From positions 1 to 34,383 of the forward strand of contig JALEGL010000011.1 in assembly GCA_022763185.1 (NCBI GenBank): a stretch of 34,383 nucleotides of DNA. Reading direction: 5' to 3'. Below, piece by piece: positions 634-34,383 of the stretch. The DNA is from a bacterium (GTDB taxonomy: Bacteria; Bdellovibrionota_G; JALEGL01). The position numbers and the translations under genes are program-made. Within the stretch, counting starts at the first letter, position 1; each line of letters begins with the position of its first letter. The notes beneath the pieces were generated by a model, which did no database searches, had not been told where the DNA came from, and worked only from the letters and a program-made list of their open reading frames with translations.

Positions 634-667
634 ACTTTTTTCTCCTATGTTTATTTTTTATAAATAT

Positions 668-693
668 CTTAAAACCCTTGTTTGAGTTTTAAG
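668..693. repeat. 8-bp inverted repeat in leader of the 265-633 gene
   Basis: Arms CTTAAAAC (668-675) and GTTTTAAG (686-693) flank a 10-nt loop. It ends 35 nt upstream of the ATG at 633, so the hairpin would sit in the 5' leader of the small gene. It could be an operator half-site pair or an RNA hairpin. There is no U-tract for a terminator on the minus strand. Confidence 0.45.
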
Positions 694-700
694 GTCGTTT

Positions 701-724
701 TTTAATGTTTTAAAAAACATTAAA
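701..724. repeat. 24-bp palindrome with 11-bp arms
   Basis: Perfect arms TTTAATGTTTT (701-711) and AAAACATTAAA (714-724) are separated by 2 nt. It lies in the gap between the replication-relaxation gene and the small gene. The symmetry with a tiny spacer is typical of a dimeric regulator operator; it could also be part of an origin of transfer. Confidence 0.55.
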
Positions 725-748
725 TTCTGGTTACTTATAAATTTACCC

Positions 749-802
749 CTACAGAGTGTGTCAGTTATACAACTGAAGATTAACTGTCAGTGCTCTCTGT
801 AG
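749..802. repeat. Nested inverted repeat, candidate oriT, operator or termination element
   Basis: Outer arms CTACAGAG (749-756) and CTCTGTAG (795-802) enclose inner arms CAGTTA (762-767) and TAACTG (781-786). CAGTT can alternatively pair with AACTG at 771-775. The element begins 8 nt after the stop of the replication-relaxation gene on the minus strand. No T-run follows, which argues against a simple intrinsic terminator. Origins of transfer and site-specific recombination sites often have nested repeats like this, but no nic site can be assigned without the relaxase. Confidence 0.45.
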
Positions 803-810
803 AGAAATCT

Positions 811-3070: not shown

Positions 3071-3072
3071 AA

Positions 3073-5467: not shown

Positions 5468-5482
5468 GACTGTTTCTCTTTT

Positions 5483-6358: not shown

Positions 6359-7044
6359 TATTCAAACTCCGGCAGTTTAAAACCATCACTGAACATGGAC
6401 TTTGATTTTTTAAGATCGTCACCTACAGTGTTAAAGTGATTGACTGAGTCTTTGTTATATTTATTGTCCAAAGCCAGCTTCTCACTTTGTAGTTTTAGCA
6501 TCTGACCATTGACTTTAAGCAATTGATTCAAGGTATGCAGAATCTGGGCATTGGTTTGAGCATTAGCACGCAAAGCACCTTTAGGGCTCAAAGCATTGGC
6601 AGACTCTGTGATCTTGATGGCGTTGTCTTCTTGCTCTTTGGCGTACTTAGAGATGTTGACATTCATCTTTAAGCTTTCAGCAATGCTTTTGTCATGCAGC
6701 TCTTGAATAGCTGATTCAGCACTGTCTGGTATCTCTCCATACAGCTTTTTAATCGTACTTAAAGCAATGCCCATGCTTTGCAGTTCTTTTAAAACGGCTT
6801 CATCTTCAACAGGTAAAGTGTTCTGAATATGATTAAGTCTATCCAAACCACTGTTGACTTGCTCAAGAATATGCCGCTGAGCTCTGCCTTCACGTAAGAC
6901 ACTGCGCAGTTGATTGTAACGTTTCTTACTTTCAACCACGATCTTAATCAGATGTGGAATCGCTGCAGCACTGCCAAATATGGCATAAGCGTTGGTGCTT
7001 ATACATATGATTAAAATAAACCCTCCAAGTTTTAATGTTCTCAT
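6358..7044 (-). CDS. VirB5/TrbJ-like periplasmic transfer protein
   Basis: The protein has 228 residues with a signal peptide ending near TNAYA. The rest is almost wholly helical, with IPHLIKIVVESKKRYNQLRS and a long coiled-coil-like body, as in TrbJ/VirB5 minor pilus proteins. These are periplasmic or pilus-tip proteins needed for substrate transfer. It starts at an ATGA overlap with the VirB4-like gene. The identification rests on the TrbJ-like opening, the helical content and gene order; direct sequence similarity is weak. Confidence 0.68.
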   Translation of the reverse strand: MRTLKLGGFILIICISTNAYAIFGSAAAIPHLIKIVVESKKRYNQLRSVLREGRAQRHILEQVNSGLDRLNHIQNTLPVEDEAVLKELQSMGIALSTIKKLYGEIPDSAESAIQELHDKSIAESLKMNVNISKYAKEQEDNAIKITESANALSPKGALRANAQTNAQILHTLNQLLKVNGQMLKLQSEKLALDNKYNKDSVNHFNTVGDDLKKSKSMFSDGFKLPEFE

Positions 7045-9491: not shown

Positions 9492-9801
9492 GTTGTTTCC
9501 TTTGTTGTAGGGTTTTTGAATATTGGCCAGCACTATAAAAGCCTGCTTGTTGATGAAATCGAACACAGTGCTTTAAAAAATCATCAGGTTTGTTGCGTTT
9601 TCCCAATAGAAGCACTCCTGCCAATAGACTTGGCAGTACAAAAACCATAATAATGTTAAGTGATGTCTGACCGAACAATACGTTCATGATTGAGGCAAAA
9701 ATTAAGACCAAGAGAAGATCTTGGGCGTTGATACCCAAGATCTTAAACTGGCTCTCTAAATGCCGATGAATCTCACTAGAATGAAGAGAAGCCATCGCCA
9801 T
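9463..9801 (-). CDS. VirB3/TraL-like membrane protein
   Basis: The protein has 112 residues. A short hydrophilic start leads to two adjacent hydrophobic stretches, about residues 26-62 (LLLVLIFASIMNVLFG and IIMVFVLPSLLAGVLLL), and a basic tail with KHCVRFHQQAGFY. That matches VirB3/TraL, a small inner-membrane partner of VirB4. It lies between a pilin-like and a VirB4-like gene, the usual VirB2-B3-B4 order. It starts at a TAATG junction and overlaps VirB4 by 29 nt. Confidence 0.8.
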   Translation of the reverse strand: MAMASLHSSEIHRHLESQFKILGINAQDLLLVLIFASIMNVLFGQTSLNIIMVFVLPSLLAGVLLLGKRNKPDDFLKHCVRFHQQAGFYSAGQYSKTLQQRKQHVIKTIKLS

Positions 9802-10085
9802 TATCCTGCCGCACTTTGAATGAAAGCAATGATCTGCGGTGCCATAAAGCCTATGGCACTGGCTGTGATCACAGCAAAGATTTTACCTTTTGCTTCTGCG
9901 CTTCCAGAGATAGATAAGAATGCTGCATAAATCAATCCCAGAACACTCATCAAGGGTAAAACCACGCCAATGAGTTGCCCGGTGAGATTGCTCATCTTGC
10001 TTTCAAATCCACCAAATGCATACGCTCCATCTGGAGCTATAATTAAAAACCCTACAAATAACCCTGCTAAAGCAGCATGTCTCAC
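9801..10085 (-). CDS. VirB2/TrbC-like pilin precursor
   Basis: The protein has 94 residues. A signal peptide ends at AYA (about residue 23). The mature part of about 70 residues has two hydrophobic helices (LTGQLIGVVLPLMSVLGLIY and IFAVITASAIGFMAPQIIAF) separated by a short Ala/Lys loop. This is the VirB2/TraA pilin layout. It starts with GTG, preceded by AAAGG and overlapping the upstream stop as GTGA. The pilin would polymerise into the conjugative pilus. Confidence 0.85.
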   Translation of the reverse strand: MRHAALAGLFVGFLIIAPDGAYAFGGFESKMSNLTGQLIGVVLPLMSVLGLIYAAFLSISGSAEAKGKIFAVITASAIGFMAPQIIAFIQSAAG

Positions 10086-10405
10086 TTCACCTTTCTAAGC
10101 AATAACTCATGATTATAGGGTGGGATTTTAACTTTGATGCTACCAGTATCCGTTGAATGACCTTGACCCACAGTGGTTCTATAGTTTTTCTTGCCGTCGT
10201 AAGCTTCAACTTTGTAGGTTTCCTTATTGTTGGAAAAAGATGTAGCTCTTACGTAGAATCTTCTGCTTTGAGGAAACATATCGATCTTAAGTCTATAGTC
10301 TCCTTCAAACTCTTCTCTAAAAGCAACACCTGCGGGGTAATGTTTTTGATTGTATGGATCTCTCCATTCCACATTTATTTTTTCTGATTTTTTATCGTCA
10401 TACAT
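10082..10405 (-). CDS. Uncharacterised protein upstream of pilin
   Basis: The protein has 107 residues, with no signal peptide or membrane helix, and a beta-strand-rich, basic composition (YRLKIDMFPQSRRFYVRATS). I do not recognise a family. AAGGAAG is placed 8 nt before the ATG. The gene is translationally coupled to the VirB2-like gene by GTGA, so its product is likely made in step with pilin. A cytoplasmic pilin-biogenesis or regulatory factor is possible; nothing in the sequence proves it. Confidence 0.72.
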   Translation of the reverse strand: MYDDKKSEKINVEWRDPYNQKHYPAGVAFREEFEGDYRLKIDMFPQSRRFYVRATSFSNNKETYKVEAYDGKKNYRTTVGQGHSTDTGSIKVKIPPYNHELLLRKVK

Positions 10406-10447
10406 AATGTATTCTTCCTTTTTGTTTAATGTTCATACTATCCAAAC

Positions 10448-10759
10448 TCATAGACCCATAAGTCCAGCGTTAAGAGATTTGGATGGATTGTGACTAAATC
10501 GTTGTTGATGCAAACGACGCAAAGTTTGTAATGCATCTTTGTACAATGCATGCACCCGTTTCATGGGCAGCTTGCTTGTTTTTGCAATATTACTCAAGGA
10601 CATGCCTCGATAAAAATGCAAGTGCGCCACCATGAACTGTTGCATAGGTAAAAAGTGCAGCTCTCTTGCGAGAAAGTACTTTTCATCTTCACACAGCAAT
10701 GTGCTTTGATTTAGTTTTTGTTTATGATTTATATTCCCTGCAAATTCAACATGTCTCAC
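10448..10759 (-). CDS. Sigma-70 region-4-like HTH regulator
   Basis: The protein has 103 residues. Residues about 33-83 match a sigma factor region 4: ELHFLP, then QQFMVAHLHFYRGMSLSNIA, then KTSKLPMKRVHALYKDALQT followed by LRRLH. Region 2 is absent, so it cannot be a complete sigma factor. It is more likely a small DNA-binding regulator of the operon or a partner of RNA polymerase. The start is GTG at 10759, overlapping the stop of a 19-codon leader peptide (GTGA). Being first in the transfer operon suits an autoregulatory or transfer-control role. Confidence 0.75.
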   Translation of the reverse strand: MRHVEFAGNINHKQKLNQSTLLCEDEKYFLARELHFLPMQQFMVAHLHFYRGMSLSNIAKTSKLPMKRVHALYKDALQTLRRLHQQRFSHNPSKSLNAGLMGL

Positions 10760-11130: not shown

Positions 11131-11946
11131 CTATTTTCCTTTCCATGCATCGCCATGGAGTTTGTTTAATAAATTGTTAGATACGTAATGATAAGCGTCC
11201 TGTATGTTCCATGTTTTGTTGCTCGCAAGAAGAGGAATCATATCTTTTTTAAAAATACTGTCTTGCATTTTTAAACTTAAATTGGATTCAAATTGGGCTC
11301 TTGATACTGGCAGGTTTTGTTTTCTTGTATAATGCTCAAAGCATTGAACTAGCTTGTCTTCGTTAAAATCAAGAGCTTGCTTTGCTTCATGCAAATCAAA
11401 TAAGTCCCTTCCTTTTTTTCTTTGATACAAAGCCCGCAGCTTTGTTCCAAGAAGTTCTTCAAGTTCGTAGGTCAGGATATTCACATTTTTTGTAAACCAC
11501 GGATTGTTAACTTTAAAAGGTTTATGAATAAGTTTAAAAACATTGTTATGTTCTCGTGTATTGATTTCAATCTTAAGACGCATTTTTTTAATAGGGTGAA
11601 TGCTTGTTTCAAATCTATAAATGAACGTAACGCGACCTTCTCCTCGCTTATATTTGGGTTGTCCTAGCCAAGGATTTAAGGTTTCATGAATGGCGTCGGC
11701 CGTAGGACCAATGGGTTCAGCGTGTATTTGCGTTAAATCAATATCTTCAGAGTAACGCTTTAACTGTTTGATGAAAATTTTGTGTAAAGCAGTTCCCCCT
11801 CTAAAAGCCAGTTTCTCAGACAGTATAGGATTTGAATACAGTTCAGCTAAAGCTTTAGATAAGATGAGATCTTGTTCCACCAAAGCATCATCTTGCCAAG
11901 GCGCTTGCGTTGCTTTCCAAGCAGTAATATTTGCAGCAGGAATCAT
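11131..11946 (-). CDS. abiEii: AbiEii-type nucleotidyltransferase toxin
   Basis: The protein has 271 residues of the AbiEii/MenT nucleotidyltransferase family. The key motif is FRGGTALHK (residues 48-56) followed by YSEDIDL (65-71), giving the Gly-Gly/Asp-x-Asp metal and NTP site of DNA polymerase beta-like transferases. Later LEELLGTKLRALYQRKKGRD and DLFDL are also typical. In AbiE systems the toxin is bacteriostatic and aborts phage infection; some relatives modify tRNA 3' ends. It overlaps the antitoxin gene by ATGA. All catalytic residues appear present, so it is likely active. Confidence 0.9.
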   Translation of the reverse strand: MIPAANITAWKATQAPWQDDALVEQDLILSKALAELYSNPILSEKLAFRGGTALHKIFIKQLKRYSEDIDLTQIHAEPIGPTADAIHETLNPWLGQPKYKRGEGRVTFIYRFETSIHPIKKMRLKIEINTREHNNVFKLIHKPFKVNNPWFTKNVNILTYELEELLGTKLRALYQRKKGRDLFDLHEAKQALDFNEDKLVQCFEHYTRKQNLPVSRAQFESNLSLKMQDSIFKKDMIPLLASNKTWNIQDAYHYVSNNLLNKLHGDAWKGK

Positions 11947-12719
11947 AAGTCTGGATCGATCCTTTCATTGATAATAATGCGCCATTTTTGATCCAATTCG
12001 CCGTCCTGTTGGCTATGACTTGGAATTAAATGGGTTTTGTTTTTTTTCTTTGGCAAAGCTTCATAAAGAGCCTTTGCAATAGAGTGTTCTTCAATAAAGT
12101 CTAAAATATATCCAAGTCTTTGACATACAGTAATAGGATAAACATGAACAAGGTCTTTGACTTTATCTTGTCGTATCACTTCAGCTAACTCGATTAAGAC
12201 CGTGGCCACGTTATGAATATGACCACAGACTTCCATATACATAACCAAATCAAAAGCAGTGGCTTCTGGAGATGAAATAAGCATTGTTCCTGTTTGAGTG
12301 GTTTTTTCTATGCTCGGAATATCAAGCGTGTTCTTTTTGATCTGATAATAAATCCCCAGCTTTTTAGATGCACGAATCTGTTTTTGGCTGACTACTTGAA
12401 ACTGCATAGAAGCTTGGTGACTTGCTCCATGCAAAGACGCTGCTGTCAGTAATCCAACATAATAAGGAGCGTTGAGGTATTGCATCAAAGGGTCGATATA
12501 CCAAGAAGGCGGCACGACACCGGTGCTTTTGTATTCAATGGGGACAATTGCATAAAAGCCTTGAGCGGGCTTAATGATTCGCTTTTTTTGCAATAAGCGA
12601 TGTAACGCGATTTTTGTGTTTTGTTTTGACCTATGAGGGAGTTTAAATATATCTTCAAGAGTGAAGGTATACTGTCCTTGCTTTTGTAATTGGTCTATAT
12701 ATTGGCTTATTGATTCCAC
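11943..12719 (-). CDS. abiEi: AbiEi-type antitoxin and transcriptional regulator
   Basis: The protein has 258 residues from GTG 12719. It has an N-terminal winged helix (FTLEDIFKLPHRSKQNTKIALHRLL), then the AbiEi core with YYVGLLTAASLHGASH and SPEATAFDLVMY. AbiEi proteins silence the AbiEii toxin gene and repress their own promoter by binding inverted repeats. The open frame extends upstream, but those codons lie in the promoter, so GTG 12719 fits best. The predicted transcript start is only about 6 nt before it, with no ribosome site, suggesting near-leaderless translation. Confidence 0.85.
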   Translation of the reverse strand: MESISQYIDQLQKQGQYTFTLEDIFKLPHRSKQNTKIALHRLLQKKRIIKPAQGFYAIVPIEYKSTGVVPPSWYIDPLMQYLNAPYYVGLLTAASLHGASHQASMQFQVVSQKQIRASKKLGIYYQIKKNTLDIPSIEKTTQTGTMLISSPEATAFDLVMYMEVCGHIHNVATVLIELAEVIRQDKVKDLVHVYPITVCQRLGYILDFIEEHSIAKALYEALPKKKNKTHLIPSHSQQDGELDQKWRIIINERIDPDL

Positions 12720-12722
12720 TGT

Positions 12723-12761
12723 ATTTACAAAAGTATACAAAAAATGTATACTTTTGTAAAT
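12723..12761. promoter_or_regulatory. Symmetric divergent promoter and operator
   Basis: Perfect arms ATTTACAAAAGTATACA (12723-12739) and its reverse complement (12745-12761) flank 5 A residues. Each strand reads TTTACA, 17 nt, TATACT. The plus promoter (12724-12729 and 12747-12752) serves the GNAT gene. The minus promoter (12755-12760 and 12732-12737) serves abiEi-abiEii. The repeat is a natural AbiEi binding site, so AbiEi could repress both directions. Confidence 0.8.
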
Positions 12762-12791
12762 TGAAATGAAAAAAGTTGAGTAGGAAAAGCA

Positions 12792-13319
12792 ATGAATCAA
12801 GTAATTATCAGAAGAGCAAAACAGCAAGATGCTGCAGAAATTGCCAATGTACACTTAAATTCATGGAAAGAGACGTATGTAAACCTTTTGCCTGATGATT
12901 TTCTTGAAGGTCTGCATCTAACATTTAAAAGCCGCTATGAGCTTTGGAAAAACGTGACTTCAAATCAAGATCAAATATGTCTGGTTGCAGAGTGTAAAGA
13001 TCATGGCGTTGTTGGCTTTATTACGGGTGGAGATGGACGTGATGAAGAACGAAGCCATGAATTAGAAGTTTACAGTATTTATCTTCTTAAAGCGTATCAG
13101 GGTAAAAAAATTGGCTTTGGCTTATTAGAGCAATTTTTTCTAGAGCAATTAAATAGGAATTATCAGCAAGCGTATTTATGGGTTTTAAAAGATAACCCAA
13201 CCATAAAATTTTATGAGCAAACAGGTGCGAGCTATCAGAATATTGATAAAAAAGATGAAATAGGTGGCAAAGAAGTTTCTGAACTACTTTATTCCTGGCA
13301 AAAATTAAGCTTGAGTTAA
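12792..13319 (+). CDS. GNAT-family N-acetyltransferase
   Basis: The protein has 175 residues. It opens with VIIRRAKQQDAAEIANVHLN, typical of GNAT strand 1-helix 1. The acetyl-CoA loop QGKKIGFG is at 103-110 after VYSIYLLKAYQ, and a terminal NPTIKFYEQTGA motif follows. The substrate is unknown; relatives act on amino acids, aminoglycosides, ribosomal proteins or peptides. AGGAAAAGCA precedes the ATG. It shares the symmetric promoter with the AbiE pair. A role as part of that toxin module, or simply as a neighbour caught by the same operator, is open. Confidence 0.88.
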   Translation: MNQVIIRRAKQQDAAEIANVHLNSWKETYVNLLPDDFLEGLHLTFKSRYELWKNVTSNQDQICLVAECKDHGVVGFITGGDGRDEERSHELEVYSIYLLKAYQGKKIGFGLLEQFFLEQLNRNYQQAYLWVLKDNPTIKFYEQTGASYQNIDKKDEIGGKEVSELLYSWQKLSLS

Positions 13320-23500: not shown

Positions 23501-23696
23501 TCCTGGAGAGGGAACAGGCCTTGGCTTATCTATTGTTAAAAATATTGTAGAACTTCAACACGGTGGGACTATAGAAATACTCTCTTCAACACCAAATGGC
23601 ACAACTTTTGAAATAAAAGTACCGTTTGAAGCGCCAGATCCTGAAGATTCTGGAGTAAATGTATTTCATGGAAAGGGAGAAACACATGCCTACTGA
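20541..23696 (+). CDS. Hybrid sensor kinase with two kinase cores around one receiver
   Basis: The protein has 1051 residues. Residues 1-20 form a signal anchor. About 60-160 is a galactose-binding-like sensor (DISM type, YVYWIRFKFNN, IGDVEEVYFNG). About 172-378 holds seven membrane helices. A coiled coil leads to kinase 1: phospho-His 418 in NISHDLKTP, N-box N534, GFGIGLS. A receiver at about 673-785 has E679/D680, phospho-Asp 722, T752 and K774. Kinase 2 has His 816 in IAHELKNP, N939, and GTGLGLS near 991-997. All phospho-acceptors are present. The order kinase-receiver-kinase is unusual. It is coupled upstream to the PilZ protein and downstream to a small receiver. Confidence 0.93.
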   Translation: MIKRLVAVFLVTLIGIVYFATENNIELTAYDVKYILDDQESFKNKDISENHWQEYTLGKGIDHYKKPYVYWIRFKFNNKNQNLENPALALGKIGDVEEVYFNGEYLGANGRIEGKSRSFYHYPRIYRIQKNKIEDVNTVAIRAKKSAILRAGIHSGPVAFGDYEDLRQKVNKAYFLVYYLGIILGFFSLVMGVYHLYLYIRMRDKIQNLYYFCFSLFSSAFIYSLSWGLTVHFKSEFVVAQVNCFLGVMTAVTYLIFIQRFLNITLNIKHKVFIGIQLIFPIICLFPKQVDAVFNIYSIWFVLGLGTIIYAGYLFIWHYYKNNREDLKVLMSSIVVMLLCAFHDILHSLELFSSFQLSGVGFFSLNIGIMFSLAKDFTTAYKDVEQTVRERTDELEKAIDHVKMVEDQKKRVFTNISHDLKTPIAVAIHKLDELSEYVLKEKGREVLIKSNNALLRLNSMVKNILDTISSESGTIKLIWNKDNAVKFIKDWKIDFEEVGKLKNKTVHFSSNQDEINIPWDRDKMNRVFDNFMTNALKYCPENGDIYIRLIASGTRFQLEVEDTGEGLPEEEWKSVFKRFYQGSSTNLRDHGGFGIGLSFVYEVINKMNGNVFITHGDVGKIKFVVELPINQDIDLIESEAEQEISELRPHTLKAIAVAEYPRKYPEKENPDLPRLLVAEDNPDIAENLLYILQKDYNVYFAENGLEAIGVLEKISIDCILSDLMMPKMDGSELLSRVREDYRWKLIPFIMVTSKSDRENIIEHLNSGAQDYITKPFEKDILKARVLSQSQTSIIRKHMLNSDKLAALGVLAAGIAHELKNPIHAAKNFTSIIRKRVQMIFESMDKRDPEFEKKMNYIIDRIEDNNHKMDEITQAIGSYTNGNKEKVDININEMIDSSILLFGTKLKQKSLTIEKQYTKDNVHILGFSPLNQCVVNLIDNAIAVAKDKIVIETERTEQRVCIRVKDDGEGIAPELQNKIFDMFMTTKPPGEGTGLGLSIVKNIVELQHGGTIEILSSTPNGTTFEIKVPFEAPDPEDSGVNVFHGKGETHAY

Positions 23697-24135
23697 TAAA
23701 AAATTAAAAGTATTATTGTTAGAAGATGATCCAGATAATGCTTTAGCAATAGAAATGATCAAGGAAGAAGAGTGGACGATTCATAGAGAACGCCATCCAT
23801 TTTATGCTGATGCGAGTACCATAAATAAATATGATATTGTGTTGGTAGATATTGTATACAATATCAAAAATGATGATTTAACTAAAATTCCTTCAAGTTG
23901 GATTCACGAGAGTGTTTTTATACCGGCCAAAAATTTCATAGAAGATGTTTTAAAAATAAACCCAAAATTTCCTATTGTACTATTAACGGCGCTGACAAAA
24001 CTTCAAGTTTTAGAGCATTCAAATTTGTATGATTTAGGGGCTAATATGATCCATATAGAGAAGCCTGTGGATTTTGACTCAGAAGAATTTAATAATACAA
24101 TCGATGAATTTTTAGAAAAAAGCTCAAAGCTTTAA
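23686..24135 (+). CDS. Stand-alone receiver-like protein with insertion (paralogue 1)
   Basis: The protein has 149 residues from ATG 23686 (GGGAG upstream), overlapping the kinase gene by 11 nt. It is a receiver fold: LLLEDDPDN with acidic pair E13/D14, phospho-Asp D55 in VLVD, T101 in VLLTAL and K126 in IEKP. The gap from Asp to Thr is 46 residues instead of about 30, so about 16 residues (NIKNDDLTKIPSSWIHES region) are inserted. No output domain. Coupling to the kinase suggests it receives phosphate from one of its two kinase cores and relays it. Confidence 0.85.
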   Translation: MPTDKKLKVLLLEDDPDNALAIEMIKEEEWTIHRERHPFYADASTINKYDIVLVDIVYNIKNDDLTKIPSSWIHESVFIPAKNFIEDVLKINPKFPIVLLTALTKLQVLEHSNLYDLGANMIHIEKPVDFDSEEFNNTIDEFLEKSSKL

Positions 24136-25976: not shown

Positions 25977-25991
25977 TGGCACAACACTTGA
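25977..25991 (+). promoter_or_regulatory. Imperfect sigma-54-like site before receiver paralogue 2
   Basis: TGGCACAACACTTGA has the -24 GG and, 10 nt later, GA instead of the nearly invariant GC. It is 37 nt before the GTG start. It could be a weak or decayed RpoN site. Confidence 0.3.
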
Positions 25992-26028
25992 ACTGCTTCT
26001 TGATAATTTTAAATATGGAGGAGTAAAA

Positions 26029-26466
26029 GTGGCCGTAAAAAAAAACCTAAAGGTATTGTTGGTTGAGCAAGACCTGGATAATGCTTTATCATTAGAATTT
26101 ATAAAAGAAGATTGGGAAATAGTACGATATAGTCACCCTACTGAAGTCAATGTAGCAAAAGTTAACAATTATGATGTAGCATTTTTAGATATTGTATTTA
26201 AAAGTCAAAGTGGGGGAAGCCTGTCAGAATCTTTGGTATGGTCAGATCCAGCTATCTTTAAATATACCGAGAAGCTAATTGAAGATATCGTTAAGGTTAA
26301 TCCATCATTGCCAATCATGTTGTTAACAGCAATTGAAGAAGACTTTATCAAAAAAAAATCAAAGATATATAACCTGTGTCCAAATGTCTTATATATGGGT
26401 AAGCCAGTCAGTTTCGATTCAGAATACTTCAATAACAAACTTAACGACTTTTTAGAAAATTTATAA
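26029..26466 (+). CDS. Stand-alone receiver-like protein with insertion (paralogue 2)
   Basis: The protein has 145 residues from GTG 26029, preceded by GGAGGAG. It is clearly a paralogue of the 23686-24135 protein: similar opening KVLLVEQDLDNAL, phospho-Asp D54, T100, K125 in MGKPVSFDSE, and the same 46-residue Asp-to-Thr distance. The acidic pair is E13-Q14 rather than E-D, which may weaken metal binding and phosphorylation. No output domain. It lies just upstream of the sigma-54-driven biosynthetic operon. Confidence 0.83.
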   Translation: MAVKKNLKVLLVEQDLDNALSLEFIKEDWEIVRYSHPTEVNVAKVNNYDVAFLDIVFKSQSGGSLSESLVWSDPAIFKYTEKLIEDIVKVNPSLPIMLLTAIEEDFIKKKSKIYNLCPNVLYMGKPVSFDSEYFNNKLNDFLENL

Positions 26467-26470
26467 AAAC

Positions 26471-26487
26471 TGTTCAATATATGAACA
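26471..26487. promoter_or_regulatory. Palindromic candidate activator site
   Basis: TGTTCA and TGAACA arms flank 5 nt, within a longer imperfect palindrome with AACTG and CAGTT outside. The centre is about 147 nt upstream of the predicted sigma-54 start, suiting an enhancer-binding protein site. It also follows the receiver stop by 4 nt, but no T-run makes it a terminator. Confidence 0.45.
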
Positions 26488-26598: not shown

Positions 26599-26615
26599 TT
26601 GGCACACTGCTTGCT
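26599..26615 (+). promoter_or_regulatory. Sigma-54 promoter of the biosynthetic operon
   Basis: TTGGCACACTGCTTGCT fits the RpoN consensus (TGGCAC, 5 nt, TTGCT). GG (26601-26602) and GC (26613-26614) are exactly 10 nt apart. Transcription should begin near 26626, leaving a leader of about 32 nt before the first ATG. Confidence 0.8.
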
Positions 26616-26657
26616 ATAGTGAAACTCATGTATTTTAAAATTTATGAGGTTTAACTT

Positions 26658-26843
26658 ATGGAATTAATCAAAGAAAAAAATAGTACCAATATACCGTACA
26701 GAAAAAATATTTTTTCAAATATTACAAAGCTGGATGAATCAAAAAAATGTTCAAAACTTTGTAAATGCAAAGATTTTTATTTAGGAGCAGCAATCGATAA
26801 AGAAGCATATGACTCAATGTTAGAGTTTTGGGGGTTAAGCTAA
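26658..26843 (+). CDS. 61-residue Cys-containing small protein heading the biosynthetic operon
   Basis: The protein has 61 residues, with no signal peptide or recognised family. Cys31, Cys35 and Cys37 form CSKLCKC in a Lys-rich stretch, followed by a helical-looking C-terminus ending EFWGLS. GAGG lies 8-11 nt before the ATG. It is the first gene after the sigma-54 promoter and ends 1 nt before the dehydrogenase, so it is likely translated with it. Possibilities are a small carrier or scaffold for the ATP-grasp ligases, a ribosomal-peptide precursor, or a metal/redox helper. It has no carrier-protein Ser motif and no C-terminal Glu as in LysW. Confidence 0.65.
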   Translation: MELIKEKNSTNIPYRKNIFSNITKLDESKKCSKLCKCKDFYLGAAIDKEAYDSMLEFWGLS

Positions 26844-26844
26844 A

Positions 26845-27984
26845 ATGCATCAGTGGAGTAAAGATCAACTAGAGTTAAAGAGTAAATTTCTAGAAATTGG
26901 AAAAAGTACTTCCAAACTTTGCCAAGAATCATATGAAAAAAAAGAATTTTGTTATGATGCATGGAATGTTTTAGCAAAAAATAATTTATGGAAAATTCCT
27001 TTTTCAGAAAAAATGGGAGGCTTAGGGGGAACTTGGTGGGATTTTATTGCCGCTTATGAGGGTTTGTCTGAAAGTTTAGAAGATATAGGTTTGTTATTGA
27101 GCGGTATTGCTCATGTAGGATTGCTGCGTGCAATTGATATATATGGAACATTAGAACAAAAAGATTATTATTTTTCAAAATTATTTGAAGGTGCAGTGGG
27201 AGCAACAGCGATTACTGAAAAAACAGGTGGATCAGATGTTCCAAGAATACAGGTGAATGCACAGGATGATAAAGGAACTTTATATTTAAGCGGTGAAAAA
27301 GTACATATCACAAATGCGCCTATTTTTGATATTGCATTAGTTGTTGGAAGGGTCCCATCTCTTGGGGATAAGAAAGATATTTCGCTGTTCATTTTAGATA
27401 AAAATCAAAAAGGTATAATTAAAGGGCCTAAAGAGGTAATGACAGGTAACCATTCCAGCCCAACTGGCAGCTTTAAACTAGATCAAGTTGAACTAAGTTC
27501 TATTAATATTTTAGGAAACCTGGGTGAAGGATTAAAAAACCTTTACAATATTATTTCGTTAGACAGGGCTTTGTATGGTCTTGTCAGCGCTTCAACAGCT
27601 AAAATGATAATAAAAAATGTTCTTGAAAGGTGTTCAAATAGAGTGTCTTTTAAAAAACCTTTGATAGATCATCAATATGTACAACAAAGAATAACAGATA
27701 TTCAAATACGTCAATATTCAACGCAGTCAGTAACATATAAAGCTCTAAGCAGTCTTTTCAGAAACGATTCAGAAGCAGTTATGGCATGTTCAATAGCAAA
27801 ATTAATTGGAAGTGAATCAATGGTCAAAAATGGAAATGATCAAATAATAATTCATGGTCATATGGGCTATGAAAAAAGTAAGTTTAGTAAATATTTTTTA
27901 GATGCACTAGGCACCATTATAGCTGGGGGAACAAGCGATATTCAAAGGTTGAATATTTTAAATCAAATGAAAGGTTTTGTGTGA
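26845..27984 (+). CDS. Acyl-CoA dehydrogenase-family flavoprotein
   Basis: The protein has 379 residues with the ACAD pattern: FSEKMGGLGGTWWDF, flavin-binding ATAITEKTGGSDVP (120-133), and C-terminal IIAGGTSDIQRLN. The family normally removes hydrogen from acyl thioesters with FAD. Here the MCAD-type catalytic Glu is Gly361 in IIAGGTS, as in isovaleryl-CoA dehydrogenase; the alternative base position in the LDRALYG helix holds Asp240 rather than Glu. It may use Asp, or catalyse another flavin reaction. It is 1 nt after the small Cys protein gene and overlaps the thioesterase. Confidence 0.88.
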   Translation: MHQWSKDQLELKSKFLEIGKSTSKLCQESYEKKEFCYDAWNVLAKNNLWKIPFSEKMGGLGGTWWDFIAAYEGLSESLEDIGLLLSGIAHVGLLRAIDIYGTLEQKDYYFSKLFEGAVGATAITEKTGGSDVPRIQVNAQDDKGTLYLSGEKVHITNAPIFDIALVVGRVPSLGDKKDISLFILDKNQKGIIKGPKEVMTGNHSSPTGSFKLDQVELSSINILGNLGEGLKNLYNIISLDRALYGLVSASTAKMIIKNVLERCSNRVSFKKPLIDHQYVQQRITDIQIRQYSTQSVTYKALSSLFRNDSEAVMACSIAKLIGSESMVKNGNDQIIIHGHMGYEKSKFSKYFLDALGTIIAGGTSDIQRLNILNQMKGFV

Positions 27985-28376
27985 AGTTAAGTTCAAATAT
28001 AAAAGTTGGCGTAAAAAACACATTAGATCATATTGTTCAAGATCAGGATTTAGCTATAAATTGGGGCAATGATTTACATGTGTTGTCGACACCTGTTTTA
28101 TTATGGTTGAGCGAAAAAGCATCTATGAAAGGGATAGATCTCTTGGAAGATCAGATGTCTGTTGGTTATGGGCATAACTCTTTTCATCTCGCTCCAAGTA
28201 TTAAAGGTTCAAAAATAGTAATAGAGAGTACTCTAAAAGAAGTAGAAGGTAATAAACTTACTTTTGAGGTTCTTGCACATGACAGAGAAAAAATCGTTCT
28301 TAAAGGTATTCATACACGATATATCTTAAGCCGTGAAAAATTTGTAAATAAGATAAAAAACATGGAGCAAAGATGA
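27981..28376 (+). CDS. FlK-like hotdog thioesterase
   Basis: The protein has 131 residues. It matches the fluoroacetyl-CoA thioesterase (FlK) branch of the hotdog fold. STPVLLWLSEKAS gives Thr37 and Glu45, SVGYGHNSFHLAP gives His69, and the end carries LTFEVLAHD and GIHTRYI. Those three positions correspond to the FlK catalytic set. FlK protects its producer by hydrolysing a toxic thioester; here it could release the product, edit thioesters or provide self-protection. It starts with GTG overlapping the dehydrogenase stop. Confidence 0.8.
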   Translation: MKLSSNIKVGVKNTLDHIVQDQDLAINWGNDLHVLSTPVLLWLSEKASMKGIDLLEDQMSVGYGHNSFHLAPSIKGSKIVIESTLKEVEGNKLTFEVLAHDREKIVLKGIHTRYILSREKFVNKIKNMEQR

Positions 28377-29578
28377 CTTCTCTTAGTGTGAAAGAAAGTA
28401 AGTTTAAGTATATTCTTGGAGAGTGGTCTATTCTTCATTTTGGACACTTTGCGATTAAAGCTATTTTAGCAATTTATTTGTTATATAAACTTGAGTTTAC
28501 ATCAGCGCAAACGACATCAGTAATTATATTTTTTACAAGTGCCTCGAGATTAAGTCGTATAATTTTTCCTAAAATAATATTGATGTTTTCAGCGAATATT
28601 TTAGCTCCAATTTTACAATTGATATGTGCTGCTGGTTATTTTATAGGTGCTTATACGACTTCATACTTAGGAATGTTAATGTTGGTTACATTAATTGGAT
28701 CTTGCTACGGTTTAAATGCGTTATTGGTCAAAACAATATCAGGAAATTTAAAAAAGGATGGGTCTAAGAAGCTCATTTTTCTATATACCTACCTTAACAT
28801 TGCAGTTAATGTTGCAGCTGCAATTGGACCTCTAATAGGAAATTATTTGTATTTAAATTTTAATGCACATTGGGTGTTTATATTTAGCTCAATAACTCAT
28901 TTTTTATCTGCAATTGTGGCTATCTTTTTTCCAAAGAACAGTCATTCAAATAACACAAATCAAAGCTCTTTCCTGAGAGGTATGACAAAAGCAATATTAG
29001 ATCCTTCATTACGTTTGGTTTGGTTGCATATTGCAATTGTATATGTTTTTATGAGCCAATTTCATACACTTGTACCATTGTATTTAAAGTCATTTCTTAA
29101 TCGAGTTGATTTAATTGGACCTACATATACAGTTAATGCAGCTATAGTTATTTTGTTACAAGTTCCTATTCATAAATATTTTGTTAGAAAAAATATATCC
29201 GTTCATTTGGCAATGTTTATAGGTTTCTTTTTGTTTTTAATAGGAAGTGCATTGCTGCTTTTTAGCCAATATATTTCAGTGTTTTTTATAGTAATAGCAA
29301 TATGGACAGTTGCAGAGGTGATTTGTCTTCCATGTCTAGAAACAATTATTGGTGAACAAAAAGATACAAATTATAGAGCAATCTCTTTTGCAGCAATGGG
29401 CTTGGTTATGGCAATGGGAGAAGGGATAGGAAACTATTTTGGCGTAGGGTTAAGTCACTGGGCAATAAAAAATAATATATTTTTTATTATTCCATTGTCA
29501 CTGTGTGCATGGGCAACTTTAGCGATGATTATTCCGAAAATTTTAGTGTTTTTAGAAGGAGATAAAAGATATGAATGA
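28373..29578 (+). CDS. Major facilitator superfamily transporter
   Basis: The protein has 401 residues with about 12 hydrophobic helices and a central hydrophilic loop near residue 195 (FFPKNSHSNNTNQSS). No cytosolic domain is added. It lies inside the biosynthetic operon, overlapping the thioesterase by ATGA and the first ATP-grasp gene by 8 nt. The likely role is export of the product, giving resistance, as BacE does for bacilysin. Direction of transport is inferred. Confidence 0.87.
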   Translation: MTSLSVKESKFKYILGEWSILHFGHFAIKAILAIYLLYKLEFTSAQTTSVIIFFTSASRLSRIIFPKIILMFSANILAPILQLICAAGYFIGAYTTSYLGMLMLVTLIGSCYGLNALLVKTISGNLKKDGSKKLIFLYTYLNIAVNVAAAIGPLIGNYLYLNFNAHWVFIFSSITHFLSAIVAIFFPKNSHSNNTNQSSFLRGMTKAILDPSLRLVWLHIAIVYVFMSQFHTLVPLYLKSFLNRVDLIGPTYTVNAAIVILLQVPIHKYFVRKNISVHLAMFIGFFLFLIGSALLLFSQYISVFFIVIAIWTVAEVICLPCLETIIGEQKDTNYRAISFAAMGLVMAMGEGIGNYFGVGLSHWAIKNNIFFIIPLSLCAWATLAMIIPKILVFLEGDKRYE

Positions 29579-30779
29579 ACTAAATGTTGTTGTTTTTCAA
29601 AATGTTGCTCATTTTAGAATCGATTGGCTAAATTTAAAGAAAGATTTTAAAGGTCAATTGTTTCTTGTTACGCGTATCCCAGAAACAATTGAAGATGATC
29701 AAAAAAAAGCATTCGATGAAATAATTGTAGTTGATAATTTTGATGAAAAAATGTTGGAACAAGCATTAAAAAAACTGAACTTAAAATTTGATAAGTTTGT
29801 TAGTCATGATGAGTACTCAATTGCTATTGTCAGCCGATTAAGAGAAAAGTTTAATTTAAAAGGAGATAGTCAAGATATTATTTTACCATTTACACATAAA
29901 GTTACTATGAAATCTATGCTAGCTGATTTTTCAGTTATAGATAAGGACTTTGTAGCGATTAAACAATATCTAAAAAAAAACCAAAAAAATATACTTGATG
30001 AGGTCATTGAAAATTTAAAGTTTCCAATTTTTGTAAAACCAGCCGATGAATCGGGAAGTGTTGGAGCAAAAAAAGTTGTTTGTAAAGATGAATTTGAAGA
30101 ATGGCTAAAATCTATACCTGAACAAAAAGATTACATTGTAGAAGAGTTTGTAGAAGGGGATTTGTTTCATTGCGATATTATTATAGAAAATTACAAGCCT
30201 ACGGTTTATTTGTCATGTCAATATGCCTATCCCTGTCATGAAAGTTTTGAAGGGAAAGTAAGAGGGAGTATTTTACTTCCAGAAAATCAAAGTGTAGCAA
30301 AGAGATTAACAGAGTTTTCATCAAAAATCCTTGAAAAAATTAAGTTGCCTGAAGCTAGTGTTCTTCATTTAGAGGCGTTTTTATTAAAAGATGGATCATT
30401 TAAATTTGTTGAGCTAGCAATGAGGCCCCCAGGGTCAATCATTCCTTATATGTATGAGTCAGTTTTAGGAGTCAATATAGAAGAGCTATATTACAGGTTA
30501 CAGATAGGTTTATCATATAAATACAGTGAATCTCGTATGCAAAATGCGGCATGGATTAGTTACCCTCAAAAAAATGGAAAGTTTGTATCAAAACGAAAAA
30601 TTGATCAAGGAACAGTTAAAAGAATAATTTGGAAAAAAGAAGAGGGTGATACTCTCTCTAACCCTGACCCAAGATACCCAGTTTGCCAAATAATATTATC
30701 AGGATTAGATTACGAACAGTTAGAAAAAGACTTTAACTATCTTACAAGAGACTTTTATCCTGCGGAGGTAAAGAAATGA
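29571..30779 (+). CDS. ATP-grasp carboxylate-amine ligase (copy 1)
   Basis: The protein has 402 residues. The N-terminus is a Rossmann-like pre-ATP-grasp domain. Motifs of the ATP-grasp core are present: FPIFVKPADESGSVGAKKVV (K156, nucleotide lysine), IVEEFVEGD (about 189-197), LHLEAF (265-270, E268) and FVELAMRPPG (279-288, E281 and R285). Such enzymes activate a carboxylate as acyl phosphate and join it to an amine, as in BacD, DdaF or carnosine synthase. AGGAG precedes the ATG, inside the MFS gene end. It is adjacent to and homologous with the next gene. Confidence 0.9.
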   Translation: MNELNVVVFQNVAHFRIDWLNLKKDFKGQLFLVTRIPETIEDDQKKAFDEIIVVDNFDEKMLEQALKKLNLKFDKFVSHDEYSIAIVSRLREKFNLKGDSQDIILPFTHKVTMKSMLADFSVIDKDFVAIKQYLKKNQKNILDEVIENLKFPIFVKPADESGSVGAKKVVCKDEFEEWLKSIPEQKDYIVEEFVEGDLFHCDIIIENYKPTVYLSCQYAYPCHESFEGKVRGSILLPENQSVAKRLTEFSSKILEKIKLPEASVLHLEAFLLKDGSFKFVELAMRPPGSIIPYMYESVLGVNIEELYYRLQIGLSYKYSESRMQNAAWISYPQKNGKFVSKRKIDQGTVKRIIWKKEEGDTLSNPDPRYPVCQIILSGLDYEQLEKDFNYLTRDFYPAEVKK

Positions 30780-31999
30780 AAGAGATATTTGCATTTATTC
30801 AAAATGGTGGAGCTCAAAGAATAAAATGGGAAATATTCAATCCAAAAAACAATGAGTTAAACTTATGGACAGATAAAAAAAGCTTAAAAGAGTTAAAGAA
30901 AGAAAAACGAGATAAGTTATTTAAATCTATTACAGTTACTGAGGATTATTCATACCCATACTTAGAAGAGTCACTTAAAAAAGTTGATAAAAAGCCTAGT
31001 AATTTGTGGGTTGCTACCAATGAAGAATATGTAGTTTCAGTTTGTGCAGATTTGAGGGAGAACCTAAATTTAAAGGGAGACTATTCACTTGATAAATTTC
31101 GTAATAAAGATCTGATGAAAAAACAATTGATCAGTAAAGGTTTAGAGCAATATTTACCTAAGTATAAAGTTTTTGATAAAAACAATTACTTAAAAAATCC
31201 AGAAGAATATTTAGAAGAAATTGTTGATTATCTAAGTTATCCAATTATAGCAAAACCAACTGATTTAGCAGGAAGTAAAGGAGTTACTTTAATTTCAAAT
31301 ATTGAGGACTTAAAATCTTGGGTTAAGGATATTATTGAAGATGAAAATCAATATGAATTAGACGATTTTATTGATGGAGATCTTTACCACTGTGATTCTA
31401 TTGTTCAAAATGGAAAGATTAAAAAGGTATTACATTCAAAATATTTAAAGCCTTGTAACAGTTTTCATAATGCGATCCCATGTGCATCTATAGTTGTTCC
31501 AGATCACCTTAAAATTAAGAAAACCCTTGATCAATTAAATGAAGAATTATTAAGTGTTTTTTCTCCTCTTCCAGATGGTACATTTCACTTAGAGCTATTT
31601 ATGACAAAAAATGGTCAGAGCTACTTTTTAGAAGTGGCTGCAAGATCTGCAGGAGGGTTGACTCCTGAAGTTTATGAGAAAACATATGGTTTAGACTATA
31701 GAACATTGCATTATGCACTTCAATGTAGAAAAAATATTTCTTTAGAAACTAAAAATGGACCTTATTCAGCTTGGGCATGGATCCCAAAGAAAAAAGGAAA
31801 AGTAGTTGCTTTAAATAAGCCGGAACATTTTTTAAGTGAATATCAAATTGAATGGAATTGTGAAATTAATGAAAACTTAGAAAAGCCAAAAGGTTTGTTG
31901 GACTACTGTGGGAAACTATTGCTTTGGAGTGATGATTATCAAACTTTAGAAAAAGATTTTAAAACCATAGAGAATTTTAATTTTTTAGAAGTTAAGTGA
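30776..31999 (+). CDS. ATP-grasp carboxylate-amine ligase (copy 2)
   Basis: The protein has 407 residues and is a paralogue of copy 1. Core motifs are PIIAKPTDLAGSKGV (K160), ELDDFIDGD (about 194-202, Asp-Asp where copy 1 has Glu-Glu), HLELFM (271-276, E273) and FLEVAARSAGG (284-294, E286 and R290). GGAGG is just upstream of the ATG and the genes overlap by ATGA. Two ligases in tandem suggest two successive bonds, such as a tripeptide, or two alternative substrates. Confidence 0.9.
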   Translation: MKEIFAFIQNGGAQRIKWEIFNPKNNELNLWTDKKSLKELKKEKRDKLFKSITVTEDYSYPYLEESLKKVDKKPSNLWVATNEEYVVSVCADLRENLNLKGDYSLDKFRNKDLMKKQLISKGLEQYLPKYKVFDKNNYLKNPEEYLEEIVDYLSYPIIAKPTDLAGSKGVTLISNIEDLKSWVKDIIEDENQYELDDFIDGDLYHCDSIVQNGKIKKVLHSKYLKPCNSFHNAIPCASIVVPDHLKIKKTLDQLNEELLSVFSPLPDGTFHLELFMTKNGQSYFLEVAARSAGGLTPEVYEKTYGLDYRTLHYALQCRKNISLETKNGPYSAWAWIPKKKGKVVALNKPEHFLSEYQIEWNCEINENLEKPKGLLDYCGKLLLWSDDYQTLEKDFKTIENFNFLEVK

Positions 32000-32025
32000 A
32001 CCTTAAAATAGAAAGGAAAAGTATT

Positions 32026-33003
32026 ATGAATTTCAATTATAAATTTAGTGAAAAAGAAAATAAAAATTTAGTAACCAATTTTAGTAATTTTTTTAGCCAT
32101 CCTTATAAAAATTATTTCTCATTTAAAAAAGAGGTATCGGAAGTTATAAGTGAAAACAAAAATATAAAAAGGTTTATGGGCTATTTAAAAAATAATGAAT
32201 CTGAAAAAGGATTAAGTTTGATTTCAAACTGCCCGATTGATGAAGTTTTACCAAACCTCACAAAGGATAATCCAGTTGAAGAAAAAAGAAATTTAAAGAA
32301 GACATTTATAGCAGAAGCTTTTTTAGAATCTATAAGTCAAGCAATGAATTTAGAAGTTATAGGGCACAAAAGTGTTAATAACGGTGATTTTTTTCATGAC
32401 ATATATCCGATTAAAAATATGTACCAATCTCAATCTCAAAAGACACTGGATTCGTTAAAGTTTCACAAAGATTTTACCAATCATTTTGCAAGACCGTCTC
32501 ATGTGATAGTTTTATGTCTTCGCAATGATCCAGTTAATGAAATTGTTAGTACTTTTGTAGAAAATCAAGTGGTAATAGAAAATTTACCCCCTCAGGACCT
32601 TAAGCTTTTAAAGCAACCAATTTATTATACTCCTTTTGACGATATAAGCGCTAAAAAAATAGCTTCTATTACAGATAAGAAACCTTTGGAACACGCTATT
32701 ATTGAAGGAAAAAACAATATTCGTTACTTTGAAGGAAGAACAACTTCTGATGTTGCTGAGGCAAAAAAAGTATTAGAACATTTACGACTTCTTATTCATG
32801 AATATAAACAAGAGTATCAAATGCAACCAGGAGATTGTGTTATTTTTAATAATGATCTTTATCTTCATGGAAAAGAAGTAAGAAAAATTAATGATATAAA
32901 TGCTCTTCAAAATAGATGGTTGATGAAGATTCATGCAGTAGATAATATTAAGGCATTTAAAAAACATTTTTCTCCAGAACAGTACGGAGTTGTCAACGGA
33001 TAA
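32026..33003 (+). CDS. Clavaminate-synthase/VioC-like Fe(II)/2-oxoglutarate oxygenase
   Basis: The protein has 325 residues from ATG 32026, which has AAAGGA upstream; a GTG at 31996 overlapping the previous stop is weaker. The metal triad is LKFHKDF (H147, D149) and LYLHGK (H281), with the 2-oxoglutarate Arg in NRWLMKI (R297). CLRND after the first motif and the ND-x-x-x-HGK arrangement match the VioC/AsnO/clavaminate synthase group, which hydroxylates or desaturates the beta carbon of free or tethered amino acids. It would tailor the amino acid building block. Confidence 0.88.
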   Translation: MNFNYKFSEKENKNLVTNFSNFFSHPYKNYFSFKKEVSEVISENKNIKRFMGYLKNNESEKGLSLISNCPIDEVLPNLTKDNPVEEKRNLKKTFIAEAFLESISQAMNLEVIGHKSVNNGDFFHDIYPIKNMYQSQSQKTLDSLKFHKDFTNHFARPSHVIVLCLRNDPVNEIVSTFVENQVVIENLPPQDLKLLKQPIYYTPFDDISAKKIASITDKKPLEHAIIEGKNNIRYFEGRTTSDVAEAKKVLEHLRLLIHEYKQEYQMQPGDCVIFNNDLYLHGKEVRKINDINALQNRWLMKIHAVDNIKAFKKHFSPEQYGVVNG

Positions 33004-33006
33004 TGT

Positions 33007-33759
33007 ATGAATGATGTAGTAGTTATAACAGGTGCGAGCAGTGGTATCGGTGAATCAACTGCGTTATTGGCAGCGAAGCATGGGTATTCAGTTGCAATCA
33101 ATTATAATAAAAATGAAACTTCAGCTATAGAAATTAAAAATAAAATTGAATTGATGGGAGCAAGAACAGATATCTTTCAAGCAAATGTTTCTTGTGAAGC
33201 TGAAGTTGTTCAAATGTTTAGTGAAATTGAAGATAAAATGGGTAAAATTAAAGCTTTAATTAATAATGCAGGAGTAACAGGTGGTTTTGCAAAGGTGGAT
33301 GAAGTTAAAGCAGATCAGATTTTAGATGTTTTGCATACCAATGTATTAGGTACATTACTATGTACTCGAGAAGTAATAAAGAGAATGAAAAAATATTCTG
33401 CTTCTTTTCTAAAAGGCTGTTCAATTATTAATATAAGTTCAACTGTATCAAAAACAGGTGGGGCAAATGAGTGGGTTCATTATGCAGCTTCAAAAGGAGC
33501 TATTGATGCTTATACAAATGGCCTAGCAAAAGAAATAGGGGCACTAGGAATACGTGCGAATACAGTATCACCAGGGTTAGTGAGAACAAATTTACATGAG
33601 CTCAATGGTGATCCAGATAGACCTGATAGATTAGAAGGTTCAGTTCCTTTAAAATATGTAGCAAATCCTAATGAAATCTCTGAAATGATAGTTTGGCTTT
33701 TATCCGAAAATGCGAGTTATGTTTCAGGAGCAAAAATTGAAGTGTCTGGGGGAAGGTAA
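33007..33759 (+). CDS. Short-chain dehydrogenase/reductase
   Basis: The protein has 250 residues of classical SDR type: TGASSGIG (8-15), NNAG (87-90), Ser145/146 in NISSTVSK, and YAASKGA with Y160 and K164. The C-terminal VSGGR is also typical. The closest recognisable groups are FabG-like reductases. In this operon it may oxidise the hydroxyl made by the oxygenase or reduce a ketone before transamination. The ribosome site is weak. It starts 3 nt after the oxygenase stop. Confidence 0.92.
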   Translation: MNDVVVITGASSGIGESTALLAAKHGYSVAINYNKNETSAIEIKNKIELMGARTDIFQANVSCEAEVVQMFSEIEDKMGKIKALINNAGVTGGFAKVDEVKADQILDVLHTNVLGTLLCTREVIKRMKKYSASFLKGCSIINISSTVSKTGGANEWVHYAASKGAIDAYTNGLAKEIGALGIRANTVSPGLVRTNLHELNGDPDRPDRLEGSVPLKYVANPNEISEMIVWLLSENASYVSGAKIEVSGGR

Positions 33760-33760
33760 A

Positions 33761-34383
33761 ATGAATAATTTAAATAGTTTAAAAGGTGATCAGGAGTTTG
33801 TTTACAAGACTTGGGCAAAACAAAAAGATGAATCTCTACTCCATATAGAAAAAGCTTATGGTTGTTATTTTGAAGATAGCGAAGGAAAAAAATACTTAGA
33901 TTTTGCAGCGCAACTTTCTAGCGTTAATGCTGGGCATGATCATCCAAAAATTACGGCATCTATAATAAACCAAACTCTAAACTTAAATGGAGTCAATCCA
34001 TCTTTTTCACATAAAAATAAAAATTTATTAGGTGAAAAAATATCTAAAATTTTACCTGGAGATTTAAATAAAACATTTTTTACTCTAGCTGGGACAGACG
34101 CAATCGAAAATAGTTTGAAAATTGCTCGAATGTATACGGGTAAAAAAAAGGTGATAAGTCGTTACAGATCGTATCATGGTAGTTCATTTGGTGCGATGGC
34201 TGTGAGTGGTGATCCAAGAAGACATTTTTTTTCTCCTGATGACTCATGGGTTATTCGTGTTCCGGATCCTTATCCATACAGAAGTCCAATTTATAGTGAT
34301 AGATCAAAGGAAGAAGGAGACGAAGTTTTATTACAAATGATGGAAGATATTATTCTTTTAGAAGATCCCCAGCAAATTGGAGC
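33761..34383 (+). CDS. Class III PLP aminotransferase (3' end outside window)
   Basis: The frame is open from ATG 33761 to the right edge, giving 207 residues. AAGG lies just upstream. Class III features are the substrate loop LDFAAQLSSVNAGHDHPKI, the TFFTLAGTDAIENSLKIAR cofactor phosphate loop and SRYRSYHGSSFGAMAVSGD. The PLP lysine is beyond the edge. Enzymes of this fold move an amino group to a keto or aldehyde group. It probably acts after the SDR in building the product. The operon continues to the right. Confidence 0.9.
   Translation, partial: MNNLNSLKGDQEFVYKTWAKQKDESLLHIEKAYGCYFEDSEGKKYLDFAAQLSSVNAGHDHPKITASIINQTLNLNGVNPSFSHKNKNLLGEKISKILPGDLNKTFFTLAGTDAIENSLKIARMYTGKKKVISRYRSYHGSSFGAMAVSGDPRRHFFSPDDSWVIRVPDPYPYRSPIYSDRSKEEGDEVLLQMMEDIILLEDPQQIG

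Follow-up and report, generated by a model that had tools for sequence, protein, structure and literature searches.

A predicted sigma-54-driven operon with a TdaE-like flavoenzyme, an FlK-type thioesterase and two ATP-grasp ligases in a Bdellovibrionota_G bacterium

Introduction

TdaE of the tropodithietic acid pathway is a dioxygenase; it dehydrogenates its substrate first and then carries out an O2-dependent cleavage of the CoA ester (PMC8283759). Other enzymes of the acyl-CoA dehydrogenase (ACAD) fold turn beta-keto acids into epoxyketones or vinyl ketones (PMC5719088, PMC12624316). Here we analyzed a 34,383-nucleotide stretch of DNA (the window), contig JALEGL010000011.1 of assembly GCA_022763185.1, from a bacterium of the lineage Bdellovibrionota_G; the window spans all of contig C11, and the genome measures 2.25 Mb. 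From position 26600 its plus strand carries a nine-gene operon, in which a TdaE relative and an FlK-type thioesterase are combined with two ATP-grasp ligases, an oxygenase and an exporter. Its product is probably a short, exported peptide (di- or tripeptide) that contains at least one non-proteinogenic amino acid. Peptide pathways free of non-ribosomal peptide synthetases (NRPSs) are hard to detect by rule-based mining. In the open-access literature, represented mostly by titles and abstracts, we found neither a described pathway with this enzyme combination nor its product.

Results

Nine genes behind a perfect sigma-54 element

The promoter region and the genes of the operon are listed below; coordinates refer to the window.

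26471–26487, no strand assigned: palindrome TGTTCAATATATGAACA, 129 bp upstream of the −24 element (sequence scan)
26600–26615, plus: sigma-54 (RpoN) −24/−12 element TGGCACACTGCTTGCT, zero mismatches
26658–26843, plus: 61-aa protein with a CxxxCxC motif (open reading frame call, codon score; AlphaFold)
26845–27984, plus: flavoenzyme of the ACAD fold, TdaE relative (Pfam, pairwise identities)
27981–28376, plus: FlK-type hotdog thioesterase (PF22636)
28373–29578, plus: predicted exporter of the major facilitator superfamily (MFS; PF07690)
29571–30779, plus: ATP-grasp ligase 1, L-amino acid ligase-like (Pfam, PDB match 4wd3)
30776–31999, plus: ATP-grasp ligase 2, paralogue of ligase 1 (Pfam)
32026–33003, plus: Fe(II)/2-oxoglutarate oxygenase of the VioC/AsnO/clavaminate synthase type (TauD, alignment, fold match)
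33007–33759, plus: short-chain dehydrogenase/reductase (SDR) with Y159-K163 (Pfam, 44% identity to its G694 partner)
33761–34383, plus: class III aminotransferase, first 207 aa (PF00202); the remainder lies past a collapsed repeat, on contig C14 or C7

The nine open reading frames (ORFs) touch one another, with overlaps of 4–8 bp or gaps of at most 26 bp. Pfam backs all family assignments except that of the 61-aa protein: ACAD (three domains), FlK, MFS_1, two ATP-grasps, TauD, adh_short_C2 and Aminotran_3. ORF layout and Pfam thus confirmed what an earlier reading of the sequence (the original prediction) had proposed, namely nine overlapping or near-touching genes of these families. An Rfam search of the window gave zero matches.

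TGGCACACTGCTTGCT is the sole zero-mismatch sigma-54 match in the window, and RpoN is encoded in the same genome; both sequence marks of a sigma-54-dependent operon are present. Genome-wide, there are eight exact sites against none for a reversed control pattern, and seven of the eight precede a same-strand gene, one of them type IV pilin-like as judged by eye. Sigma-54 control, which had also been proposed, is well supported as a prediction, and the operon is most likely a complete, sigma-54-driven nine-gene unit. The stretch upstream of the element contains two palindromes with 6-bp arms, and TGTTCAATATATGAACA is a candidate binding site for a sigma-54 activator. Further upstream are two similar response-regulator-like genes (23597–24135 and 25977–26466), each directly behind a near-miss sigma-54 site, TGGCACAAC..TTGAA.

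A TdaE-like flavoenzyme is paired with FlK

By pairwise scores alone, TdaE is the closest of the characterised enzymes found to the operon's ACAD, with 36% identity over 98% of the ACAD and 250 bits. The S. rimosus relative scored 321 bits, and the top scores elsewhere were at most 159 bits for NCBIfam models and at most 122 bits for PDB chains; as these values come from different programs, the comparison is rough. Identities to the ACADs of S. rimosus, the Streptomyces genome G694 and Rhodococcus are 42%, 41% and 36%, respectively. The protein carries AGGT where classical enzymes carry EGT, and SLDR, with an Asp, at the alternative base position; the glutamate of canonical acyl-CoA dehydrogenases is therefore missing from both places. 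The ACAD paralogue on contig C3 of the same genome retains YEGT. The original prediction had labelled the protein a dehydrogenase, but none of the family models or solved structures found comes as near to it as the dioxygenase TdaE. With TdaE and the epoxyketone- and vinyl-ketone-forming enzymes as precedents, this ACAD may well be an oxygenase or act in the manner of a decarboxylase.

The partner thioesterase scored 80 bits against FlK Pfam model PF22636 (cut-off, 27) and is 50% identical to its S. rimosus counterpart, 49% to that of G694 and 32% to that of Rhodococcus. T37, E45 and H69 are invariant in three sequences and correspond to the Thr/Glu/His triad of FlK. Score and residues together place the protein among the FlK thioesterases.

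The dehydrogenase and FlK had been set aside as genes that belong to neither the bacilysin nor the dapdiamide scheme. Instead, they form a conserved pair beside ketoacyl synthase III (KAS-III), a class III aminotransferase and an MFS protein in S. rimosus, two more Streptomyces and Rhodococcus. In our plasmid search, S. rimosus pPZG101 had adjacent ACAD and FlK genes together with KAS-III, a class III aminotransferase, a PreATP-grasp protein and an MFS protein. A Rhodococcus NBC_00294 plasmid carries a similar set of KAS-III, aminotransferase, ACAD, FlK and MFS genes without the PreATP-grasp gene, which is present in the Streptomyces cases (S. rimosus and the two others). antiSMASH reported two biosynthetic gene clusters on the S. 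rimosus plasmid, a polyketide synthase and an NRPS cluster, and the KAS-III cassette is not among them (PMC9045324); the related S. rimosus cassette therefore appears to be unrecognised.

Two blocks of the operon are collinear with a Streptomyces cluster

The FlK profile was run against 392 genomes from a single order, that of G248 (assumed to be Streptomyces-like), and gave three strong matches, two in S. rimosus-type clusters and one in G694. The G694 cluster holds relatives of six operon enzyme types on one strand, in the order ATP-grasp, oxygenase, SDR, class III aminotransferase, KAS-III, ACAD and FlK. Besides ACAD and FlK, the oxygenase (39% identity) and the SDR (44%) were compared with their window counterparts. 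The two blocks of the window, ACAD–FlK and ATP-grasp–oxygenase–SDR–aminotransferase, are the blocks of G694 in swapped order with the MFS gene between them. The G694 oxygenase scored 261 bits, with the active-site regions and the C-terminus closely alike, and 63 other oxygenase relatives scored 72–176 bits. Since G694 was found through the thioesterase alone, the adjoining oxygenase, SDR and ligase are independent support for one pathway. A lack of joint conservation in relatives would have spoken against the original prediction; the six enzyme types are grouped in Streptomyces G694.

Scanning 84,980 species for the oxygenase yielded 63 loci, and none of the fetched flanks contained an ATP-grasp relative. 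Absence should not be read from this result, as the back-translated patterns were unable to match the G694 oxygenase (NGGDFFHD, FHRDFTNHF). The oxygenase was found in none of the four other genomes of the same phylum (five genomes in the collection). Among the best FlK loci in a 385-genome sample, only that of the window had an adjoining ACAD. Oxygenase relatives on plasmids of Vibrio halioticoli, Staphylococcus epidermidis and Streptomyces NBC_01003 belong to other pathways and were discarded. A set of TauD, LeuC/LeuD, cupin, isochorismatase and aminotransferase genes is alike on camel Staphylococcus epidermidis (L019 7730–20241) and Streptomyces (L020 1–8178) plasmids. The only plasmid relative of the MFS protein is from Priestia and adjoins an ATP-grasp gene. 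Searches with the ATP-grasps lacked the specificity for finding the cluster. On the symbiosis plasmid of Paraburkholderia phymatum, two ATP-grasps stand side by side between nif and nod genes (L023 7863–11113), and Klebsiella grimontii plasmid pNY3A (L021) carries Bacillus-typical spore-germination and FosB genes, a record that may be mislabelled or mixed.

Ligases and oxygenase

The two ligases are paralogous (30% identity) and related to both L-amino acid ligases and D-Ala-D-Ala ligases; the best PDB match of ligase 1 is the L-amino acid ligase 4wd3 (E=7e-14). The ATP-grasp signature and the kinship to known ligases mark them as putative L-amino acid ligases. Ligase 2 is weakly similar to BacD (27 bits, cut-off 850) and DdaF (30 bits, cut-off 840), far below both thresholds.

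In an alignment of 24 sequences, H147, D149, H281 and R297 of the oxygenase are invariant; the HxD/E...H iron ligands and the 2-oxoglutarate-binding arginine are present in the fold of the VioC/AsnO family. The model has a predicted local distance difference test (pLDDT) score of 87, and its best fold matches are AsnO and the L-lysine 3-hydroxylase KDO1 (template modelling score 0.82–0.83), with NapI and VioC also among them. The scores are below the NCBIfam equivalog cut-offs of GntD (65 against 345 bits), VioC (36 against 419 bits) and clavaminate synthase (49 against 450 bits). As judged from the family, the likeliest reaction is C3 hydroxylation of a free amino acid. Alignment with the Streptomyces relative indicates that the gene most likely starts at ATG 32026, not at GTG 31996.

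The aminotransferase is cut by a collapsed repeat

The final 221 bp of C11 recur at the end of contig C10 (99%), and the C-terminal third of a class III aminotransferase opens both contig C7 and contig C14, in versions that are 97% alike. PF00202 is covered at positions 3–180 in the window and at 286–403 at the C7 and C14 starts. A two-copy repeat of roughly 0.9 kb is collapsed here, with C11 and C10 leading in and C7 and C14 leading out, which is why the aminotransferase is cut at the window end. On C10 the copy is fragmentary and has lost one base from a run of T. Along either exit a stop codon closes the aminotransferase, and a convergent gene follows; the operon therefore has nine genes, and an extension beyond the aminotransferase is ruled out.

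Relatives of the mod_HExxH (TIGR04267) peptide beta-hydroxylases lie near both exits (L106 550–1368 and L105 2809–3756), and there are a fragment on C10 (L004 228–683) and a copy on C3 (C3:43047–43433). A module of an SBP5-type peptide-binding protein and a hybrid histidine kinase is repeated (L105 3807–9767, L106 1874–8872, L119 4549–8165). On C7 and C14 it is accompanied by a MATE exporter, and the kinase and MATE parts share about 88% DNA identity between the two contigs.

The 61-aa protein and a possible carrier role

The codon-usage score of the 61-aa ORF is 0.18, against 0.17–0.27 for the other operon genes; its remaining same-strand frames scored −0.22 and −0.43, and none of 2000 sampled stretches from window positions 1–10000 scored as high. 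The AlphaFold model is a poor fold (pLDDT 52), predicted to be disordered with a C-terminal helix (48–58). The protein has no Pfam match, and no relatives were found among plasmids or elsewhere in the genome, so its co-occurrence with the ligases could not be shown.

This protein, encoded by the first gene of the operon, with codon bias like that of the neighbours and predicted disorder ahead of its helix, could be the substrate of a ribosomal or carrier-peptide pathway. The ATP-grasps would ligate amino acids onto it or cross-link it, and the flavoenzyme, oxygenase and thioesterase would act on the peptide-bound unit. We regard this as rather unlikely: ligase 1 is similar to ligases of free L-amino acids, the oxygenase has the fold of hydroxylases that act on free amino acids, and a pattern scan of the Streptomyces and Rhodococcus clusters found no convincing small Cys-rich counterpart. 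On its side are the ACAD relatives PigA and RedW, which, according to their NCBIfam names, use carrier-bound substrates, and the mod_HExxH relatives near both possible downstream contig starts.

Genome context

A second cluster with two ATP-grasps is located on the minus strand of C14 at ~69–77 kb (L119 8293–16300). It encodes a HAD phosphatase, an alanine-racemase-like protein, two ATP-grasps, a GntC-like pyridoxal phosphate (PLP) enzyme, a 363-aa protein and an MFS protein, and is likely a small-peptide cluster. Beside it, at C14:61239–69160 (L119 240–8165), a sigma-54 site precedes an operon for a BioF/KBL-type synthase, a 399-aa protein without an assigned family, an MFS protein, a GNAT-like protein, an SBP5-like peptide-binding protein and a hybrid histidine kinase. 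This organism seems to make a habit of small-molecule operons that include ATP-grasps or follow sigma-54 sites. In the window itself, minus-strand genes at 1–10700 resemble a conjugative type IV secretion system (VirB/Tra-like), and a gene pair at 11131–12854 resembles an AbiEi/AbiEii toxin-antitoxin system; both assignments are putative.

Discussion

The operon presents a gene set with intact active-site residues wherever these can be tested, and two blocks collinear with a Streptomyces cluster. The adjacency of oxygenase, SDR and aminotransferase suggests the series C–H, C–OH, C=O and C–NH2 on an amino acid: the oxygenase would hydroxylate a C–H of the free amino acid, the SDR would oxidise the alcohol to a ketone, and the class III aminotransferase would transaminate the ketone to an amine. 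In the other block, the TdaE-like flavoenzyme would oxidise a small acyl thioester and FlK would free the acid; the thioester would be built by KAS-III in Streptomyces and come from primary metabolism in the window organism. The two ATP-grasps would convert carboxylates to acyl phosphates and so join the pieces through two amide bonds, and the MFS protein would export the product. The 61-aa protein might be an accessory peptide, a carrier or a regulator.

The short-peptide assignment draws support from the second cluster of this genome, with its two ATP-grasps, PLP enzyme and MFS protein, and from the predicted oxygenase fold, nearest to the free-amino-acid hydroxylases AsnO and KDO1. Several points weigh against it. 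The operon is known from its genes alone, and the order of the pathway is inferred from them. As KAS-III is missing from the window, any substrate named for the flavoenzyme block is a guess. ATP-grasps can also take non-amino-acid carboxylates, or a peptide or protein as acceptor. Moreover, the window and G694 aminotransferases, with 29% identity over the available part, are probably not orthologues.

Among the other explanations, the carrier-peptide pathway was weighed above. ACADs, SDRs, thioesterases and class III aminotransferases are common catabolic families, and the operon might serve to detoxify or degrade an unusual amino acid or acyl-CoA, with the ATP-grasps making a storage or conjugate peptide. 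However, the ACAD has lost the glutamate normally used in catalysis and has its nearest characterised relative in TdaE, an antibiotic enzyme, two ligases with a VioC-type oxygenase and an exporter suit biosynthesis, and the distribution is patchy, with strong FlK relatives in 3 of the 392 genomes of one order; we consider a catabolic role improbable. A chance assemblage of unrelated genes in a single AT-rich island is very hard to credit, because the genes overlap behind a single promoter and two collinear blocks are common to a distant bacterium, even though the exact nine-gene set was met only once and the MFS and aminotransferase genes are not orthologous to their Streptomyces counterparts.

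Taken together, the operon and its relatives look like a real, so far unnamed natural-product pathway family. Its ACAD may be an oxygenase instead of a dehydrogenase, and a TdaE-like ACAD next to FlK, with an ATP-grasp nearby, is a concrete mining signature. A sparsely sampled phylum is shown to carry several small-molecule operons linked to ATP-grasps or sigma-54. More tentatively, ACAD and FlK could be a mobile warhead cassette: a (beta-keto)acyl-CoA would be oxygenated, FlK would free a reactive small acid, and varied ATP-grasp systems would attach it to amino acids. We hold this as possible but doubtful; if true, the cassette would represent a class of NRPS-free peptide natural products, found in at least two phyla and missed by routine cluster callers.

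Comparison with known systems

As a whole, the original prediction stood in its view of an exported modified amino acid or small peptide, a reading that gene set and conservation support, and of a pathway that is neither bacilysin nor dapdiamide; it did not stand in treating the dehydrogenase and FlK as outsiders. Like the bacilysin cluster, the operon has SDR, ATP-grasp, MFS and aminotransferase types, but it is without prephenate decarboxylase or cupin, and Pfam found none of the anticapsin-forming families in it; like the dapdiamide cluster, it has an ATP-grasp and a 2-oxoglutarate oxygenase, but no adenylation or carrier domain. The low BacD and DdaF scores of ligase 2 agree with these missing companions.

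The ACAD aligns with TdaE over nearly its whole length, and both are without the EGT glutamate. However, the substrate of TdaE is a tropone-forming CoA ester, a comparison of TdaD with the window FlK gave no match, and the operon has no prephenate dehydratase or GST-type gene. The Vibrio coralliilyticus OCN008 plasmid cluster shares two ATP-grasps, a class III aminotransferase, an SDR and an MFS protein, with PanB and PanE-like genes in place of the oxygenase, ACAD and FlK. Its order (L022 6801–14673) is PanB, aminotransferase, SDR, ATP-grasp, PanE-like, ATP-grasp and MFS, resembling a pantoate-derived peptide cluster.

The S. rimosus pPZG101 and Rhodococcus NBC_00294 cassettes differ in having no VioC-type oxygenase or SDR, a CGNR regulator and a ligase of another ATP-grasp type; adjacent ACAD and FlK, the class III aminotransferase and the MFS protein are common to all, and S. 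rimosus adds its PreATP-grasp. In the G694 cluster there are a single ATP-grasp and an extra KAS-III, and the MFS protein, second ligase and small Cys protein were not seen; yet it shares with the operon, on one strand, both the TdaE-like ACAD with FlK and the order of ATP-grasp, VioC-type oxygenase, SDR and class III aminotransferase.

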